Under the pieces are notes generated by a model. The model had not been told where the DNA came from and ran no database searches. It worked only from the letters and a program-made list of their open reading frames with translations. The translations under genes and the position numbers were made by a program. Positions 11,665 through 20,698 of a stretch of 64,000 bases of DNA are shown piece by piece. Positions within the stretch are counted from its first letter, which is position 1. Each line of letters begins with the position of its first letter. The stretch is from Methanosarcina sp. MSH10X1 (GTDB lineage Archaea > Halobacteriota > Methanosarcinia > Methanosarcinales > Methanosarcinaceae). The stretch is from positions 62,001 to 126,000 of the forward strand of contig NZ_SCHL01000010.1 of assembly GCF_004099695.1 (NCBI RefSeq). Direction: 5' to 3'.

Positions 11665-12729
11665 TTGACCGGGAAATTTATACTTTTCGGAGTGTTGCTG
11701 ATATTAACTATATTTGTCATCACATGGACTCATACAATCTCAACGTTTATTTATATGGTATCAATATTTTCGCTATGCATCGGATCTTATCTCTATGAGC
11801 GTATGTACGCAACTAAACGCGACTCCGCCAGAATGAGAACAGATATCTTTCTCTGTATACTTTCTGTATTGATATTAATCTACCACTGGACGGACCCAAG
11901 ATATCCTTTCAGTGAGACAATAGTAAATGGGCTGGGAAACTCATTATCAACTGAGGCAAAGTTCTTGGGAAGGAGTGCGATTTCGAATTCAGGAGATTCT
12001 TTCTCCTCTATTCTTGATATTTTCGGTTTTCTCATCTTTATTTTTTTCGGGGTAATTGGAAGTTTTCATAGCTTATCAAAAGAGTATCAAACCAGAACTA
12101 AGGTATCCCTTGTCTTAATGATTGTGGTATTATTCGGAATCTTCTTTACTTTTCCTGTAATGGGAGTCCGAAATATCGTACCTTTCAGATGGCCGGCGTT
12201 CATATATACAACTTTTGTATTGTTTTTTGGGATCGGAATCATCAAAACAACCAGCACTATTAACGGTAGATTTCGTAAAGCTGCTTTTATCTCTATCCTA
12301 CTTATAATATTTTCATTCTTTATGATAACTAATTCTATGGCAAATATGGATTCTCCCATCTATGGAAAAAGTTTCAATCAAAAACTGATCTGGACTGAAT
12401 CTGAGCTCGGGATGTGTGTAAAACTTAACAATTCTTATGACGATATAATCCTGACAGATGCCCAGACAGTCAGTAATATATTTCAAATATACTTATCCAG
12501 AGACAGAATCGGAGAGTATGCAGTTACTCCTGAGGGAACCTTAGATTGGGAGCGTACGGCAAACAGAATGTTAATCTGGAGAAAAATTAGTTTAGATCGG
12601 CCTATCAGAGTTCAATATGTTCCTAAACTGTTACTTGGTCCTTCTTTTAAACACGCCCTCGATAACAATTATCATGCAATATATGATAGCGGATATGCCA
12701 GGACATACTTAGGAGTTAAAAGGATCTGA
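11665..12729 (+). pseudogene. 5'-truncated polytopic membrane protein (GT-C-like family of the 50.4 kb gene)
   Basis: An open frame of 354 codons encoding about seven hydrophobic segments and a C-terminal soluble tail. It begins inside a membrane segment, at a TTG with no ribosome site and only two codons after an in-frame stop. Its order of segments, including ITWTHTISTFIYM, matches the C-terminal 340 residues of the 606-residue protein at 50443-52263 (LPFTHPIVSLIFLL and onwards), so about 265 N-terminal residues appear to be missing. The remaining frame is intact, which means recent truncation or possibly a short functional form. Function unknown; see the 50.4 kb gene. Confidence 0.55.
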
Positions 12730-13885: not shown

Positions 13886-14578
13886 GTGAGTTATGTGCTC
13901 AATGAGAATTTAATGCTGCCATTCCTCATTTCTCTCGAATCTATCTCTTTCCTGTGGCGACATAATGATGTTCTTATCTTCCTTGTTGACCTGGACGACT
14001 ACGACACATTCAATACAGCTTACCTCAACAGGATGGAACTTGAATCTCTTGAAAGGTTACGGACCGGTTATTTTAAGAAAAGGTATATTGTTTCGAGAAC
14101 GGCTTTAAAACACATTGTATGCAGTATTGTCGGTGAACGGTCCGCTTCGGGCATATCCACATATAATGATAGGCATGGAAGGATCTGCATCCTTAATCAC
14201 AATGAGCTGTATATCTGTGTATCTTATACCGGAAGTATGGCAGCCCTTGCGATCTCAAAAGTCGAGATAGGCATTGATATCGAACTTGTGAAAAAACTGT
14301 CTCTTAAAAGTAACTTGAGAAACCTGAGTAAGAAATTTATCTCCACGGATGAGCCCTTAAGCGAAACCGAGCTTTTAAAAATATGGACTTTGAAAGAAGC
14401 CTATTCCAAGTTCTCAAACAAAAACATGCATCTCATTTTTAATAAGGAACTGGATCTCAGCAGTGTCAACTATTGGACTTCTGTTTTAGACAACAAATAC
14501 ATATTCTCTGTTATAACCCATTCGGACTCGAATATCGATATAAACCGCCTTTGTAAAATCAACTGTTACTGGGACTGA
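13886..14578 (+). CDS. 4'-phosphopantetheinyl transferase (Sfp type)
   Basis: A 230-residue enzyme that would move the phosphopantetheine arm of CoA onto a serine of a carrier protein. It has the Sfp/AcpT core: YICVSYTGSMAALAIS, the metal-binding GIDIE (Asp131, Glu133) and WTLKEAYSKF (residues 167-176, with the catalytic Glu and Lys). Size matches single-domain Sfp enzymes. Such transferases are rare in archaea, because most lack fatty-acid and polyketide carriers. Here the obvious substrate, an acyl carrier protein, is encoded 340 bases downstream on the same strand. It has its own TATA box, so it is a separate transcription unit. Confidence 0.9.
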   Translation: MSYVLNENLMLPFLISLESISFLWRHNDVLIFLVDLDDYDTFNTAYLNRMELESLERLRTGYFKKRYIVSRTALKHIVCSIVGERSASGISTYNDRHGRICILNHNELYICVSYTGSMAALAISKVEIGIDIELVKKLSLKSNLRNLSKKFISTDEPLSETELLKIWTLKEAYSKFSNKNMHLIFNKELDLSSVNYWTSVLDNKYIFSVITHSDSNIDINRLCKINCYWD

Positions 14579-14918
14579 GTATTTTCTATAAAATGCAGAA
14601 CTTAAATTTTGCATCTGTACTATCTTTTTGCGGTCTTATATTATTCATCTGAATAACAGGGTTATACTGGTGGATGAGCCGATTATTCTATTTTTGTGAA
14701 GTAATTAATTTCTATAAACCGTATGCATCCGCGTACACTAAACTGTTTTTACTTAGATTCTTAGCTTATGTAAGTGCTTTTTGGTCATCAATAAGTGGCT
14801 CAAATTATTTATATAGTTGTATTGCCTAATTACCTGTGGGGATTCACGTTATTGTGGACATAATTGTGTTATTCACAATCAGCCGTCCGCTAAACGAAAA
14901 CAAAGGGGATAACAGAAC
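14579..14918 (+). promoter_or_regulatory. promoter and leader of the carrier-protein operon
   Basis: A TATA box (tttatata, 14808-14815) implies a start near 14835-14840 and an 80-base leader. The leader holds two copies of attgtg (14851-14856 and 14863-14868), both able to pair with cacaat (14874-14879), so two mutually exclusive hairpins are possible. An aaagggg ribosome site precedes the ATG at 14919. Confidence 0.5.
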
Positions 14919-15164
14919 ATGGAACAGATTAAGAATGATATAGTTGATTACTTGAAGGCTAATTCTTTTATGGACAACAGCAGCAGCTTGACAGATAATG
15001 ATTCTCTCACTCAAAACGGCATTATAGATTCTATCGGTTTGCTTGAACTTATGGACTATATCTGTGAGAAATATTCTATTGAGATCCCTGAAGATATGCT
15101 TACACCGGAAAATTTTGATTCGTTACAGGGAATTACCAATATGATAACCAGGCTGGCGAAGTGA
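14919..15164 (+). CDS. acyl/peptidyl carrier protein
   Basis: An 81-residue acidic four-helix carrier protein. The phosphopantetheine attachment site is Ser38 in GIIDSIGLLELMDYI (DSxGxxEL, the usual D-S-L/I motif), and the following YSIEIPEDMLTPENFDSL is typical of carrier helix III. It is a stand-alone carrier, not part of a multidomain synthase. It is first in an operon with an AMP-forming ligase (6 bases downstream), so it probably holds the acid activated by that ligase, as DltC does for DltA in bacteria. The substrate is unknown. Confidence 0.93.
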   Translation: MEQIKNDIVDYLKANSFMDNSSSLTDNDSLTQNGIIDSIGLLELMDYICEKYSIEIPEDMLTPENFDSLQGITNMITRLAK

Positions 15165-15170
15165 AAAAAT

Positions 15171-16649
15171 ATGCAGATTGATGCGTATATCACTGAGTAC
15201 GCCAGAAAAACCCCTCAAAATATTGCTCTGGAAGAGGGCAAAAGTTCAATCTCCTATAGCTGCCTTGACAATGATATAAATGCCACTGCTTCACATTTGA
15301 TGGATTTTGGCCACTGTCGGTTTGCAATACTGGCAGAGTCAGGCACACAATACATAAAGGTGCTCATGGCAGTATATCGATCAGCTAATATCGCAATTCC
15401 TCTGCCAATAGAATTACCTAAGTTCAGTCTTGAGAAAATCCTTGATGCTGCGCATGTCAATAATATCATAGCAACCGATGCACAGTATTCAAGATTTGGA
15501 AAGGAATTTTTTGAGCGTTTCGGAACGGTAATAGTTATTTCCAGTGATACTTCCGGAGTGATTCTGCGTAAAAAGATTGAGACCGAAAAGAACAATCCCG
15601 AACTGCGGCTGGTTCTTTACACTTCAGGCACAACAGGTACCCCAAAAGGAGTCATGTTAAGTGACAGAAACCTGGCGGCAAATGCAGAGTCAATAATAAA
15701 GGTACTTCGGATAACTTCCAGAGATAAGGGAGCACTGGTGATCTCTCCCCATCACGCTTTTGGGAATTCCATAATTAACTCCCATCTGACAGCTGGCGGC
15801 TCCATCAGGGTTGGGAATATGAATTTTATGGACCCTGTTTTCAACCTTATTGGGTCAGGCGTGTCCATATTCTATGGAGTGCCCAGTACTTACCGCATAC
15901 TTCTCAAGTATCCGGATAGATTTAAAAGAGCTTTTGCAAACGTTAGAATCGCTGCATCGGCAGGCGGGGGAATGGACCGGGCTATTGTGACAGATATAAA
16001 AGAGTTAGCTCCTGATCTGGAAATTTTACCAATGTACGGGCAGACTGAAGCTACAGCAAGGCTTGCCTACCTGCCAGCAGAAGATGTGGATGAGTTCGTT
16101 GGTACTATAGGAAAAGCAATTCCGGGGGTTACACTGGATGTCTTTGACTCCAACTACCGGTCAGCAGGCTTCAATATAACGGGTGAACTGGTTGCCACGG
16201 GAGATAACATTATGCTGGGTTATCTGGACGATGAAATCGCTACTGAAAAGAGAATTATAAATGGATGGTTGCATACCGGCGATCTCGCACAGAAACTGCC
16301 CAATGGGTACATCAGACTCCTCGGGCGCAAAGATGACCTCATAAAAATCGGCGATCATCGCGTTAACCCGAGAGAAATCGAGAGAAATATAGAAGAAAAT
16401 AATGAAGTTTCCAGGGTTTTTGTCGTACCCGTGCACCATGAGCTTATGGGGACTGCGATCAGTCTCATGGTCATACCTGCAGAAGGAACAGAAATAGAAA
16501 AGCTGTTTGCGTTCTGCCGAAAAAGCCTGCCAGGCTACCTGTGCCCGAGAGAAATACTATTCATTGATCATCTCCCTTTGAGCGAGAATGGGAAAATATC
16601 CAATCGATCCATTATAGAGGAATATCAACATGTCAAAGCTAGTATGTAA
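15171..16649 (+). CDS. AMP-forming acyl/amino-acid ligase (ANL superfamily)
   Basis: A 492-residue adenylating enzyme. The core motifs are all visible: LYTSGTTGTPKGVML (residues 149-163), YGQTEAT near 289, GWLHTGDLAQKLPNGYIRLLGRKDDLIKIGDHRVNPREIE, split by its hinge into N- and C-terminal domains, and the C-terminal PLSENGKISNRS with the catalytic Lys. The first 140 residues are short, as in stand-alone adenylation domains. By position its product is loaded onto the carrier protein at 14919. It resembles both fatty-acyl and amino-acid adenylation enzymes, so I cannot name the acid. The end overlaps the next gene by 20 bases, showing translational coupling. Confidence 0.9.
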   Translation: MQIDAYITEYARKTPQNIALEEGKSSISYSCLDNDINATASHLMDFGHCRFAILAESGTQYIKVLMAVYRSANIAIPLPIELPKFSLEKILDAAHVNNIIATDAQYSRFGKEFFERFGTVIVISSDTSGVILRKKIETEKNNPELRLVLYTSGTTGTPKGVMLSDRNLAANAESIIKVLRITSRDKGALVISPHHAFGNSIINSHLTAGGSIRVGNMNFMDPVFNLIGSGVSIFYGVPSTYRILLKYPDRFKRAFANVRIAASAGGGMDRAIVTDIKELAPDLEILPMYGQTEATARLAYLPAEDVDEFVGTIGKAIPGVTLDVFDSNYRSAGFNITGELVATGDNIMLGYLDDEIATEKRIINGWLHTGDLAQKLPNGYIRLLGRKDDLIKIGDHRVNPREIERNIEENNEVSRVFVVPVHHELMGTAISLMVIPAEGTEIEKLFAFCRKSLPGYLCPREILFIDHLPLSENGKISNRSIIEEYQHVKASM

Positions 16650-17667
16650 AAAATGTATTCTGGATTCCGATATTCCAGGTATACAGATTAATGAGGAAAA
16701 CGGTCTTTGCCACTTTTGTGAGACATATACTCCCCTTACTCAGCAGGAAAAGAATGAGTATCTGGCAAAAATTGAAAAACTTTTTGAACAGTATGGGGGG
16801 AAGGGAAACTACGATGTGATTTATGCACTTTCTGGTGGGAAAGATTCATCGTATACGCTTTACAAGCTCAAAAAAGATTATCCTTTCCTTAAGATACTGG
16901 CTGTGCAGTTCGATAATGGATTTACTTCCGAAAACGCAATAATGAATGCCAAAAAAATGTGCATGATCACGGGATGCGATTATTTCCAGTTGACAATGAA
17001 GGAAGAAATTCTGCTGGACACGTTCCGAAAAGCTGCAGAGTCATACGATGCATTCCCGAAGTTCGCCAAATATCGAGCCAGTGATATATGCAACGTTTGT
17101 ATCACTATTATTAAACAGAAGCTGATAGAGCAGGCAATTCTTCAAAAAGCACCTTTTATTGTATTTGCCTTTACAGCCGGACAGTCTCCTAATCCCATAA
17201 TCAACCTATCAGTTAATTTTATTCAATGGTCCAGAAACTTATTTGACAAGCAGCTTCAAAAAATAGGTATTGACGATAAGGACGAATTGTTCCTTCTGAA
17301 AAAAGAGGTTCTTGAAAACATAGGTGAGAATGCTCCGAGTATCCTGCATCCTCTATGCCTGTGGGATTATAGTGAAAATAAAGTACTTGAGACCCTGCTG
17401 GAGATCGGGTGGGAACCTCCGGGAATCAACGACAGCAACTCAACCAACTGTACATTAAATTCCTTTGCCTGTTACAACCACATGGAAAAATACGGATTCC
17501 ATCCTTATGCCTTTGATGTAGCAGGGCTTGTGCGAAGCGGAGAAATGCCGCGGGAAGAAGGATTTGAAAAAATTAACCAGGAACTGTCACAGCCATTAAT
17601 AGAAGAGGCTGCAAGCAGGCTTAAACTGAATATAAAGAATCCACAAAAATTATCTGTTAAAGTTTAA
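16630..17667 (+). CDS. PP-loop ATP pyrophosphatase, sugar-amidotransferase-like
   Basis: A 345-residue N-type ATP pyrophosphatase. The N-terminal CKKCILDSDIPGIQI then GLCHFC (Cys 6, 9, 27, 30) is a zinc-ribbon-like start found in the WbpG/LpsA type N-acetyl-sugar amidotransferase group. The ATP-binding PP-loop SGGKDS is at 68-73, with a further CxxC (DICNVCITI) near residue 155. Bacterial relatives convert acetamido groups to acetamidino groups or amidate acids during O-antigen sugar synthesis, with a glutaminase partner; no HisH-like partner is visible here. A gagg ribosome site lies inside the preceding gene. The reaction is inferred only at the level of adenylation followed by nitrogen transfer. 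Confidence 0.75.
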   Translation: MSKLVCKKCILDSDIPGIQINEENGLCHFCETYTPLTQQEKNEYLAKIEKLFEQYGGKGNYDVIYALSGGKDSSYTLYKLKKDYPFLKILAVQFDNGFTSENAIMNAKKMCMITGCDYFQLTMKEEILLDTFRKAAESYDAFPKFAKYRASDICNVCITIIKQKLIEQAILQKAPFIVFAFTAGQSPNPIINLSVNFIQWSRNLFDKQLQKIGIDDKDELFLLKKEVLENIGENAPSILHPLCLWDYSENKVLETLLEIGWEPPGINDSNSTNCTLNSFACYNHMEKYGFHPYAFDVAGLVRSGEMPREEGFEKINQELSQPLIEEAASRLKLNIKNPQKLSVKV

Positions 17668-17701
17668 GCTATACAGCCTGATTATTCCAGGGGGTAATAT
17701 A

Positions 17702-18694
17702 ATGCAGGTCATGGAAGAAACGAGTGTGAATATAATAGAAGCGCTCAAAGGGGATATTGATAGTATAGCTTTAAAGCTCAGGGGTTTTATCAGAGATCAG
17801 GTTACAGGTTTTAAGAAAAAAGGAGTGATTATAGGGGTATCGGGTGGAATCGATTCCGCAGTAGCACTTACCCTTTGTGTACAGGAGCTTGGAAAGGAAA
17901 ATGTGTATGGCCTTCTCCTTCCTGAAGAAGAATCCGCCCCTTCCAGCAAGACTCTGGGAGCAGAAGTCTGTGAGAGCCTGGACGTGTCATATGAAGAGGT
18001 GCCTATCTCTCCTATCCTGAGATCTCTTAATATCTATGATCAGAAAGAGCAGATCATAAAAAGAACCTGTCCTGAGTACGATCCCGACATACATAAGACG
18101 TCACTGGTGCTGCCTGATTTCCTTAACCAGGGGCTGTTAAATGTCCCTTACATTCGGCTGATAAAAGACGGCGAAACCGCTGCCAGACACAGGTTGAGAG
18201 CAAATGACTATCTGGAACTGATAGGGCTGCAAAATGTCAAGCAAAGATCCAGAATGATAGTCCAGTATATGTATGCTGAAAAGTTGAACTATGCAGTTTG
18301 CGGTACAACCAACAAGACAGAACTGGCTCTTGGTCAGTTTGTGAAATACGGAGACGGGGGAGTAGATCTTGAGCCTCTGGCAGACTGCTACAAAGTCCAG
18401 GTATATGCTATGGGGAAACTGCTCAATGTCAATGAGGAGATTATAAAACGCCCCCCAAGTGCTGACACATGGAGCCATTATACAACTGATGAGGAATTCT
18501 ACTGGCGTATGCCGATTCAGATTATGGACCAGCTGTTGTACGCTCAGGAGCACCAGCTGCCCTTGAAGGTGATTGAAAAGAATACAGGACTGTCCGCAGA
18601 TACGATAGAAAAGGCCTGGAGGCATATCAATAGAATCAGAGATAGCACGGAATATGTGCGAGCCACGCCACCGGTTTGCTATATTAACAGGTAA
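17702..18694 (+). CDS. NAD-synthase-like ATP-dependent amidase (NadE family)
   Basis: The 330-residue protein belongs to the ammonia-dependent NAD synthetase family. It has the PP-loop SGGIDSA (residues 47-53), CGTTNKTELALGQFVKYGDGGVD and the LADCYKVQVYAMG segment. Beyond that it leaves the NadE pattern: EIIKRPPSADTWSHYTTDEEFYWRMP and a 55-residue tail replace the usual NadE ending, and the region around residues 120-145 is longer. Placement 34 bases behind the PP-loop gene in the carrier-protein operon suggests a specialised amidating enzyme rather than the housekeeping NAD synthetase. A housekeeping role cannot be excluded without seeing whether another nadE exists. Confidence 0.8.
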   Translation: MQVMEETSVNIIEALKGDIDSIALKLRGFIRDQVTGFKKKGVIIGVSGGIDSAVALTLCVQELGKENVYGLLLPEEESAPSSKTLGAEVCESLDVSYEEVPISPILRSLNIYDQKEQIIKRTCPEYDPDIHKTSLVLPDFLNQGLLNVPYIRLIKDGETAARHRLRANDYLELIGLQNVKQRSRMIVQYMYAEKLNYAVCGTTNKTELALGQFVKYGDGGVDLEPLADCYKVQVYAMGKLLNVNEEIIKRPPSADTWSHYTTDEEFYWRMPIQIMDQLLYAQEHQLPLKVIEKNTGLSADTIEKAWRHINRIRDSTEYVRATPPVCYINR

Positions 18695-18860
18695 ACCGCG
18701 TCAATGCCGAAGACAAAGTTAAACCAGGTAAAAACCGGTGTTTCAGGGCTTTGCCTCCAGTGAAGCTCTGATTATAAGCTTCCAGAAGCGTTCTGGCAGG
18801 CTGCTGTCATGTTAGTAGCATTGTAATAATAAAGTTAATTACTAACCCAAAAGTGTAATT
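18695..18860 (+). terminator. intergenic hairpin after the NadE-like gene
   Basis: A perfect hairpin ccagaa-gcg-ttctgg (18782-18796) lies between the NadE-like gene and the DUF362 gene. There is no long T-run, so it could be a processing or attenuation site rather than a full terminator. Confidence 0.35.
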
Positions 18861-19994
18861 ATGAATCCAAAGGTTTCAATTGCCCGATGCCAGGATTACT
18901 CGAATGTGAAAGAAGCAATCAAAGAGGCGCTGAACCTGATAGGAGGGCTTGAAAAGATTATAGCGCCTGGCAGCCGTGTACTCCTCAAACCCAATGTACT
19001 TGCTATCAGACCTCCAGAGGATGCCGTTACAACTCATCCGGCAGTAGTAACCGCAATGTGCGAACTTGTCTCGGAAGTGGGTGGTATTCCAGTTATAGGC
19101 GACGGCTCAGGCATTGTAAAACCCGGATCTACCACGACTTCACAGGCGCTTAAAAAATCCGGTATTGAAGGGGTTGCTTTAAGTCAAGGGGTGGAACTTA
19201 TCAATTTTGAGACTTCAGGTTTTGTTGAAGTTGACGTTCCGGATGCCAGGGAGTTTTCACGCCTGCATATCTCAAAGGCTGTACTTGAAGCTGATGTAAT
19301 AATTTCGCTTCCAAAGCTCAAGACTCATGAACTTACACTGTACACCGGGGCAGTTAAAAATTTCTTCGGCACCGTGCCTCAGAAAACTCGAAAACAGGCT
19401 CACTTTCTGGAAGATCGCCGCCGTTTCGGGGAAGCGGTTGTCGATATATATTCTGTCGTCAAACCCCAGCTTGCAGTTATGGACGGTGTGGTCGGAATGG
19501 AAGGAAACGGCCCGGCAAATGGTACGCCTGTCTTTGCAGGCGTAATTCTGGCAAGTTATGATTGTGCAACTCTGGATATAGTCGCATCTGAACTTATAGG
19601 AATCGATCCCCTTAAAGTCCCTACAAATAAAGCTGCACTCGCAAGAGGATTCGGAACCGAGCATCCGGAGATTGCTGGGGCGCTTCTGGAAAAGGTAAAA
19701 GTTGGGTTCAAAAGACCGGAAGGAGGAATCACTGCTTACATACCTTCTTTTCTTATGAGAATCCTTCGAAAGCAGCTGGCTGTTAAACCCTTTATTAACG
19801 CCTCAAACTGTGCACTTTGCAGAGCCTGTATTTCGAACTGTTCGGCAAATGCCATTGAAGAAACAGGCAAGGCATTCAAAATTAACGATGAAAAATGCAT
19901 TCAGTGTTACTGCTGCCGCGAACTCTGCCCTAACGATGCGGTAGAAATAAAAAAATCACCGCTTCTGAAACTTGTGACCCGAATTAAGAGTTAA
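18861..19994 (+). CDS. DUF362 protein with C-terminal 2x[4Fe-4S] ferredoxin domain
   Basis: A 377-residue protein. The N-terminal 300 residues are the DUF362 domain, with LLKPNVLAIRPPEDAVTTHPAVV, GDGSGIVKPG, SLPKLKTHELTLYTGAVKNFFGTVP, and MDGVVGMEGNGPANGTPV. The C-terminus (about 317-360) carries two 4Fe-4S motifs, CALCRACISNCSANAI and CIQCYCCRELCPNDAV. This architecture is widespread in anaerobes, and no reaction is firmly established. It lies 166 bases after the NadE-like gene on the same strand and may or may not belong to that pathway. No membrane segment or signal is seen, so it is probably cytoplasmic and redox active. Confidence 0.88.
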   Translation: MNPKVSIARCQDYSNVKEAIKEALNLIGGLEKIIAPGSRVLLKPNVLAIRPPEDAVTTHPAVVTAMCELVSEVGGIPVIGDGSGIVKPGSTTTSQALKKSGIEGVALSQGVELINFETSGFVEVDVPDAREFSRLHISKAVLEADVIISLPKLKTHELTLYTGAVKNFFGTVPQKTRKQAHFLEDRRRFGEAVVDIYSVVKPQLAVMDGVVGMEGNGPANGTPVFAGVILASYDCATLDIVASELIGIDPLKVPTNKAALARGFGTEHPEIAGALLEKVKVGFKRPEGGITAYIPSFLMRILRKQLAVKPFINASNCALCRACISNCSANAIEETGKAFKINDEKCIQCYCCRELCPNDAVEIKKSPLLKLVTRIKS

Positions 19995-20149
19995 CAGAGG
20001 AATTCTCCGGAAGCTGGTGTCTTCGGTACACTGGAAACTGGCTCATTCAATAGATTCACGGTATAAGGATTAATTAAGCATAAACTATACGAATATATTT
20101 ATCCGTTAACTTGCAATGGAAGAATAACTTAAAATAATTTGACAGAAAA

Positions 20150-20698
20150 TTGGGGGGTACTAGTATAACTGCTGTAGTATCTAATAGAGATCAGGTAGCT
20201 TTTGGCGAAATTGCGGACCATTACCACAGTAATAAACTTCTGTTCGGAATCAAATATTTTAAAAACTGGATTCTGGAACAACTTGCCTCAATCATTCCTG
20301 TGCCCTCCTGGAGGGCACAATTGCACAGGATGCGGGGTGTAAATCTCGGGCAGAATGTATATGTAGGCTATAACGTGGTTTTTGATAGGATTCATCCTGA
20401 GTTAATAACGGTAGGGGATTATTCCGAAATCGGCGACCGGTGTATATTATCTGCTCATACGAGAGGAAGTTTGACTACAAGGCAGGCGTATCCGAGAACT
20501 ATGTCTCCTATAAAAATCGGACGTGGAGTTTGTGTCAATCCGGGGTGTATAATTACACAGGGTGTCGAAATAGGGGATAATTCAATAATAGGTATCGGAT
20601 CAGTAGTTAACCGCGATATCTCTCCAAATAGTCTTGCTCTGGGCTATCCTGCCAGGGTAGTTAAAAAGCTTGAAGGTGTAGGTGAACTTAAAACCTGA
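20150..20698 (+). CDS. hexapeptide-repeat (left-handed beta-helix) acyltransferase
   Basis: About 182 residues of the maltose/galactoside O-acetyltransferase fold. An alpha-helical N-terminus (KYFKNWILEQLASIIPVPSW) precedes the helix coils: VNLGQNVYVGYNVVFDRIHPELITVGDYSEIGDRC, then IKIGRGVCVNPGCIITQGVEIGDNSIIGIGSVV and the ALGYPARVVKKL end. The usual catalytic His is probably in ILSAHTRG. It transfers an acetyl or other acyl group from CoA, probably to a sugar hydroxyl or amine. The start is doubtful: a TTG at 20150 overlaps a ggggggt run that looks more like a ribosome site for a start further in, yet no ATG/GTG follows at proper distance. Confidence 0.85.
   Translation: MGGTSITAVVSNRDQVAFGEIADHYHSNKLLFGIKYFKNWILEQLASIIPVPSWRAQLHRMRGVNLGQNVYVGYNVVFDRIHPELITVGDYSEIGDRCILSAHTRGSLTTRQAYPRTMSPIKIGRGVCVNPGCIITQGVEIGDNSIIGIGSVVNRDISPNSLALGYPARVVKKLEGVGELKT

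Follow-up and report, generated by a model that had tools for sequence, protein, structure and literature searches.

Most archaea lack carrier proteins and the enzymes that prime them, and the few exceptions are thought to have gained both from bacteria (PMC3533463). In closthioamide synthesis, the thioamide synthetase CtaC harbors an Fe-S cluster, depends on Cys154, Cys157 and Cys284 as well as on its PP-loop, and accepts substrate only when this is bound to the carrier (PMC6772006). Here we describe a seven-gene unit, PPT-ACP-LIG-PPL-NADE-DUF362-HEX, at positions 13886-20698 of a 64,000-nucleotide window of contig NZ_SCHL01000010.1 from Methanosarcina sp. MSH10X1; all locus positions refer to this whole window. 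Our leading proposal, held at somewhat below even confidence for the pathway type as a whole, is that the unit encodes a carrier-protein-based acyl-tailoring pathway that is independent of non-ribosomal peptide synthetases (NRPSs). The observations that carry the proposal come from sequence, namely gene content, co-inheritance, one acyl carrier protein (ACP) with one 4'-phosphopantetheinyl transferase (PPTase), a ligase from which the Asp that binds an α-amino group is absent, a Cys triad in the PP-loop enzyme, and gene neighborhoods. No published description of the operon was found under Methanosarcina ACP/PPTase, NadE-ACP-amidotransferase clusters or archaeal natural-product clusters.

All seven genes lie on the forward strand. 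PPT (13886-14578, 230 aa) is an Sfp/AusB-like PPTase with GIDIE and WTLKEAYSK motifs that matches PF01648 at 25.3 bits (cut-off 25), and a gap of 340 bases separates it from ACP (14919-15164, 81 aa), whose Ser38 (codon 15030-15032) lies in I-D-S-I-G and which matches PF00550 at 21.9 bits (cut-off 20.8). The next three genes are LIG, an AMP-forming acid ligase (15171-16649, 492 aa; PF00501 and PF13193, above the curated cut-offs), PPL, a PP-loop enzyme with a fold like that of the N-acetyl-sugar amidotransferases (NASATs; 16630-17667, 345 aa), and NADE, a PRK00876-type paralog of NadE (17702-18694, 330 aa; PF02540; NF002048/PRK00876 at 483 bits, cut-off 313), with 6, -20 and 34 bases between successive genes from ACP to NADE. 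They are followed by a DUF362 protein that carries two 4Fe-4S ferredoxin motifs (18861-19994) and by HEX, a left-handed β-helix (hexapeptide) acyltransferase that is a candidate acyl-ACP-dependent transferase (20150-20698). A preliminary description had recognized the first five open reading frames, and their sizes, motifs, placement, spacing and family assignments are all borne out; the limits it set, 13886-18694, were too short, as the DUF362 and HEX genes (18861-20698) belong to the same conserved block. ACP has its own putative TATA-type promoter, CTCAAATTATTTATATAG (14799-14816), which is conserved in the primary loci of Methanosarcina and opens a putative archaeal-type operon promoter (14799-14843, forward strand; CTCAAATTATTTATATAGTTGTATT...) conserved in an alignment of 16 loci. 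A Pfam scan of the cluster genes returned no condensation enzyme, ketosynthase or multidomain synthase, which agrees with the earlier view of an archaeal carrier-protein pathway that has no condensing enzyme; judged by its gene content, the cluster is not a classical NRPS, polyketide synthase or fatty acid synthase. The region gave no Rfam match, and no phage relatives were found.

The five-gene order first recognized here is conserved across Methanosarcina, where nearly all genomes carry the PPL gene, at 75-90% identity, and the neighborhoods read PPT-ACP-LIG-PPL-NADE-DUF362-HEX; from ACP onward, the order extends to sister genera. There the arrangement is ACP-LIG-PPL-NADE-FabG-DUF362-HEX, with the FabG-like reductase gene between NADE and DUF362 or last in the operon; the FabG homologs of the window's genome are all distant (44% at best) and encoded elsewhere. 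All seven genes show dN/dS (non-synonymous to synonymous substitution rate) ratios of 0.04-0.25 between the window and two relatives, and this purifying selection, together with a gene order kept in Methanosarcina and three other genera, demonstrates that the cluster is not a chance array of reading frames. A scan of genome contigs returned PPL carriers from Methanosarcinaceae-type archaea only (Methanosarcina, Methanococcoides, Methanomethylovorans and other Methanosarcinaceae), and among 394 genomes of the phylum just two full-length copies, both divergent (genomes G297 and G414), lie outside the family. Of the 112 family genomes, 51 carry PPL, and exactly these 51 carry the PRK00876-type NadE. 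When only good genomes are counted, PPL, ACP and NADE are each present in 41 of 86; ACP was not detected in three of the 51 PPL/NADE genomes, and those assemblies are 60-81% complete. The genomes share descent and are not independent, such that the match between these sets is strong and does not amount to a formal probability. Methanophenazine is generally present in the family Methanosarcinaceae. A role for the cassette in methanophenazine or core coenzyme synthesis was rejected, as the cassette is missing from nine of 14 sampled family genera and is patchy in another.

The DUF362 gene is kept with the cassette in most genomes. Genome G003 holds two copies (L042 and L043), one of which lacks intact LIG and NADE genes and retains DUF362 and HEX, while the other lacks DUF362; this complementary decay argues that the DUF362 protein is part of the pathway. 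Three second copies in Methanosarcina (L032, L037 and L042) come immediately downstream of CooC-like, iorA and iorB genes, and an iorB fragment is retained in another (L035), which suggests a single site of insertion, moved or duplicated afterwards. For this reason, the adjacency of iorA and iorB was set aside as a clue to the substrate.

The window's genome encodes one PPTase, the only PF01648 match, and one ACP match above the family cut-off, and PPT therefore most probably serves the cluster ACP alone. The pair almost certainly forms a functional carrier unit. A different, stronger PPTase (G001:C3:37385-37693; 78.6 bits) is encoded in a Methanosarcina genome that has no cassette, where another carrier system is probably present.

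What acid would be loaded onto this carrier? LIG contains all core adenylation motifs as well as the catalytic Lys475. At its A4 position, however, it reads HHAFGNS and does not contain the Asp that binds the α-amino group, where gramicidin synthase domains and a stand-alone Roseovarius ligase have F-D. The same Asp is absent from the ligases of related rhizobial cassettes. An α-amino acid is thus an unlikely LIG substrate, and the earlier suggestion that the pair loads amino acids in the manner of Dlt proteins fails at this position (F-G-N-S in place of F-D). LIG also falls well short of TIGR03098, the family of acyl ligases associated with XrtA/PEP-CTERM (210.6 bits, cut-off 592).

PPL was previously placed among enzymes that adenylate carbonyl groups for nitrogen transfer, and several of its features bring it close to the NASATs. 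It matches TIGR03573/WbuX over its full length (112.7 bits, below the cut-off of 203.2), and it contains the SGGxDS PP-loop (SGGKDS, 16831-16848) and the Zn tetracysteine (C6/C9/C27/C30) of that family. The predicted structure (pLDDT, the predicted local distance difference test, 90; pTM, the predicted template-modeling score, 0.89) fits best to the Legionella NASAT 8wex (TM, template-modeling score, 0.69), followed by the [4Fe-4S] sulfur transferases NcsA and TtuA. The motifs tell a different story. In NASATs that adjoin HisH/HisF2 genes, and in archaeal proteins of their clade, [DE]xPTD/S-like and GHHxEN-like motifs stand where PPL has C154-N-x-C157 and S-[TS]-N-C274. By sequence comparison, C154 (17089), C157 (17098) and C274 (17449) form a Cx2C...C triad that is invariant in 21 PPL sequences, while C281 is found in Methanosarcinaceae only. 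This triad, C-N-x-C...[ST]-N-C, is absent from every HisH/HisF-type NASAT examined and is present in the PP-loop domains of Roseovarius and Streptomyces NRPSs, with a near-copy in Pseudohalocynthiibacter. In the Roseovarius NRPS, the PP-loop domain separates the adenylation core from its C-terminal subdomain and immediately precedes the carrier domain. Moreover, the NASATs proper form one clade (support 100/100) and PPL another (100/99), and no HisH/HisF2 ammonia supplier was seen among the inspected neighbors of the window locus and the Methanosarcina loci, whereas such partners stand beside bacterial plasmid NASATs. By motifs, clade and partners, as far as sequence comparison reaches, PPL is not an N-acetyl-sugar amidotransferase.

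Two other groups of PP-loop proteins were noted in the course of this comparison. Cys-triad PP-loop domains occur in NRPS proteins at L053:9424-17472 and L054:9935-12115, where they may act as tailoring domains. Further archaeal PP-loop proteins of NASAT-like length (L122-L126 and L130) carry CI[AS]C or CLGC together with FDC (CIPC and TDC in L125) and are probably Fe-S enzymes that fall outside the NASAT clade.

PPL combines a PP-loop and a Cx2C...C triad, the features of CtaC, with a carrier and an activating ligase encoded alongside. Given the near-identical Cys positions, the setting in an ACP operon and the NRPS fusions, PPL probably acts on a carrier-bound substrate and sulfur is the leading option for the atom inserted, although in our judgment sulfur over nitrogen falls just short of an even call. 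Several points weigh against sulfur. The PPL-CtaC likeness was established from published Cys positions, not from a sequence alignment; PPL and the NRPS-fused domains group with moderate support only (82/68); only the Cys positions point to an Fe-S cluster; and no sulfur donor is encoded. A further point comes from bacteria. The nearest non-archaeal NadE homologs found are on alphaproteobacterial plasmids, including those of Sinorhizobium meliloti, in an AsnB-ACP-ligase-NadE cassette that answers in part to the gene order sought in bacteria, with AsnB where PPL would be. This bacterial evidence comes from plasmids only. As the bacterial cassette contains AsnB but lacks PPL, sulfur is not obligatory in the shared logic.

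Could PPL and NADE then both transfer nitrogen, so that a sugar or small molecule is decorated with an amide or amidine (acetamidino-like) group made from an ACP-bound acid? The NASAT fold and Zn tetracysteine of PPL, the retention of all NadE ATP-binding motifs in NADE, and the replacement of PPL by the glutamine amidotransferase AsnB in bacteria would all fit. However, Cys residues stand in PPL in place of the [DE]xPTD and GHHxEN motifs, HisH/HisF2 genes were not seen adjoining PPL as they do the plasmid NASATs, and the known PP-loop enzymes with such a triad (TtuA/NcsA/TtcA and CtaC) are sulfur transferases. We consider nitrogen transfer by both enzymes possible, if unlikely, and the earlier assignment of PPL to nitrogen transfer is placed in doubt.

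With sulfur insertion by PPL retained as the leading option, the next question is where the acyl group would go. In two Methanosarcina genomes, additional copies of the cassette (second copies L031, L032 and L035) are followed by two GT2 glycosyltransferase genes, a membrane protein, a flippase and a GT4 glycosyltransferase. One Methanococcoides group has Gfo/Idh and WecC-like dehydrogenase genes upstream of the cassette, loci of the genus g5 contain WecB, WecC, GT4, deacetylase and FemAB genes, and the two divergent copies outside the family (G297 and G414) lie near glycosyltransferase, flippase, and aminotransferase or deacetylase genes. At least two genes of a glycan panel are present at five to six of about nine independent cassette locations and in three of 40 control windows, a comparison that is indicative only, being biased by a panel drawn partly from the cassette loci themselves. 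Against a glycan acceptor stand this bias, the window's own locus, where UppS and HEX are the only glycan genes nearby, and several Methanococcoides and Methanomethylovorans copies that have no glycan genes close by. The sugar decoration proposed earlier thus finds support in the neighborhoods of several relatives and none at the window itself, and from these neighborhoods a surface glycan is in our estimate an evenly balanced proposition as the acceptor.

The product may instead be a diffusible specialized metabolite, with the acyl group released by HEX or another enzyme. PPL relatives are fused into NRPSs, the PPTase is similar to AusB and HetI, which belong to metabolite pathways, and some copies, including that of the window, are far from glycan genes. 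However, no thioesterase, transporter or condensation enzyme was recognized in the Pfam-scanned conserved block, and archaeal copies in other genera, as well as an Azospirillum cassette, have glycosyltransferase, WecB/WecC, flippase and polysaccharide deacetylase genes around them. In Azospirillum, two GT4 glycosyltransferase genes and a polysaccharide deacetylase gene precede ACP-ligase-AsnB-NadE-GNAT. A GNAT-like "hypothetical" protein accompanies most inspected bacterial copies, and these GNATs are distantly homologous to GNATs beside archaeal cassettes in three loci. We regard a diffusible product as rather doubtful.

A surface glycan remains our preferred acceptor, and NADE is the last enzyme to be placed. 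The notion that it might be the only NAD synthetase of its genome is ruled out, as the canonical NadE is encoded on a separate contig (G000:C33; 291 bits). Compared with that enzyme, NADE keeps the ATP-binding and catalytic motifs, and it is an ammonia-type ligase that has no glutaminase domain. It contains an insert of about 50 residues (~108-167) that is shared with the paralogs of the rhizobial ACP-ligase-NadE cassettes, and the C-terminal HKR motif of canonical NadE is absent from both. The structure prediction suggested earlier was carried out, and the model, of moderate quality (pLDDT 79), fits best to NH3-dependent NAD and nicotinamide mononucleotide (NMN) synthetases. The substrate pocket has presumably changed relative to canonical NadE. 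The separate canonical enzyme and the genome set shared with PPL establish NADE as a dedicated paralog and not the NAD synthetase of the genome. That NADE makes NAD or NMN and adjoins the cassette by chance is very improbable: a full PF02540 match and an FtNadE-like fold are consistent with it, but the canonical enzyme elsewhere, the perfect match between the 51 genomes with NADE and the 51 with PPL, the missing HKR motif and the large insert common to rhizobial cassettes all argue against it. On an S. meliloti plasmid (L179:5167-9972), the NADE homolog is annotated as NAD(+) synthase within an asnB-ACP-ligase cassette near minCDE, and this annotation is probably misleading.

How might these enzymes work together? 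We infer each catalytic step as follows, including the use of sulfur over nitrogen and the transfer to a glycan. PPT would convert apo-ACP to holo-ACP at Ser38, and LIG would adenylate a carboxylic acid that is not an α-amino acid and load it onto ACP. NADE may adenylate the carboxylate of a pathway intermediate, yielding an amide with free ammonia. PPL, as a putative Fe-S PP-loop enzyme, would adenylate an amide or acid oxygen on the acyl group held by the carrier, and the replacing atom would most likely be sulfur, giving a thioamide as CtaC does in closthioamide synthesis. Redox tailoring could be provided by the DUF362/ferredoxin protein and, in the operon of sister genera, by the FabG-like reductase. 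Lastly, an acyltransferase (HEX here, GNAT-type elsewhere) may hand the acyl group to an acceptor, most likely a sugar of a surface glycan, at an amino or hydroxyl position. The complete scheme, in which methanogens build a thioamide acyl group on a carrier through NADE amidation and PPL sulfuration before linking it to surface glycans, and in which the rhizobial and Azospirillum cassette is a relative that uses nitrogen only, is speculative and unlikely to hold in all its parts.

If correct, this would be a thiotemplated glycan-decoration pathway of which we found no description in any domain. In the genetically tractable Methanosarcina, it provides an ACP/PPTase pair that is compact, found throughout the genus and equipped with its own operon. 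The gene set also points to a function other than NAD synthesis for a NadE subfamily annotated as NAD(+) synthase on plasmids of S. meliloti and other hosts. Moreover, the PPL group separates predicted Fe-S, carrier-linked enzymes from proteins otherwise read as N-acetyl-sugar amidotransferases and opens a testable route into the surface chemistry of archaea and into thioamide synthesis. Upstream of the operon, the window encodes a multi-pass membrane protein (11665-12729) that has no Pfam or NCBIfam match; L024 encodes a full-length homolog, and L033 and L034 contain degraded fragments. A derivation of this reading frame by truncation of a 544-aa membrane protein of the glycan cluster was rejected, as the two have no homology.

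Four known systems can be set beside the archaeal operon. The Dlt system (DltA-DltC) likewise pairs a stand-alone ligase with a small carrier, but LIG lacks the α-amino Asp and no DltB/DltD-type transfer proteins were seen in the operon. The NASATs (WbuX/WbpG; PDB 8wex, PMC10607449) share with PPL the overall fold, as its best PDB match, along with the PP-loop and the N-terminal Zn tetracysteine; in contrast, PPL scores below the TIGR03573 cut-off, has neither the HisH/HisF-type motifs nor the HisH/HisF2 partners, carries the Cys triad, and sits in an ACP operon. Closer in gene content is the rhizobial and Azospirillum GNAT-AsnB-ACP-ligase-NadE(PRK00876) cassette, which has an ACP, a non-amino-acid ligase, a PRK00876 NadE and, in most inspected copies, a GNAT, but which has AsnB for PPL and contains no PPTase, FabG or DUF362 gene. 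The shared core, as read from the genes, is an ACP, a ligase, a NadE paralog and an acyltransferase, and the variable enzyme is AsnB in bacteria versus a predicted Fe-S PPL in archaea. By analogy, the operon appears to work most like the closthioamide pathway (CtaC with its carrier CtaE; PMC6772006), which also follows an NRPS-independent thiotemplated logic with a stand-alone carrier and an AMP-forming ligase in anaerobic hosts, and in which C154/C157/C284 of CtaC occupy nearly the same positions as C154/C157 and C274 or C281 of PPL. The ATP-grasp, transglutaminase and peptidyl transferase enzymes of that pathway are not in the archaeal operon, which adds instead a NadE paralog, a DUF362/ferredoxin protein and a hexapeptide acyltransferase.

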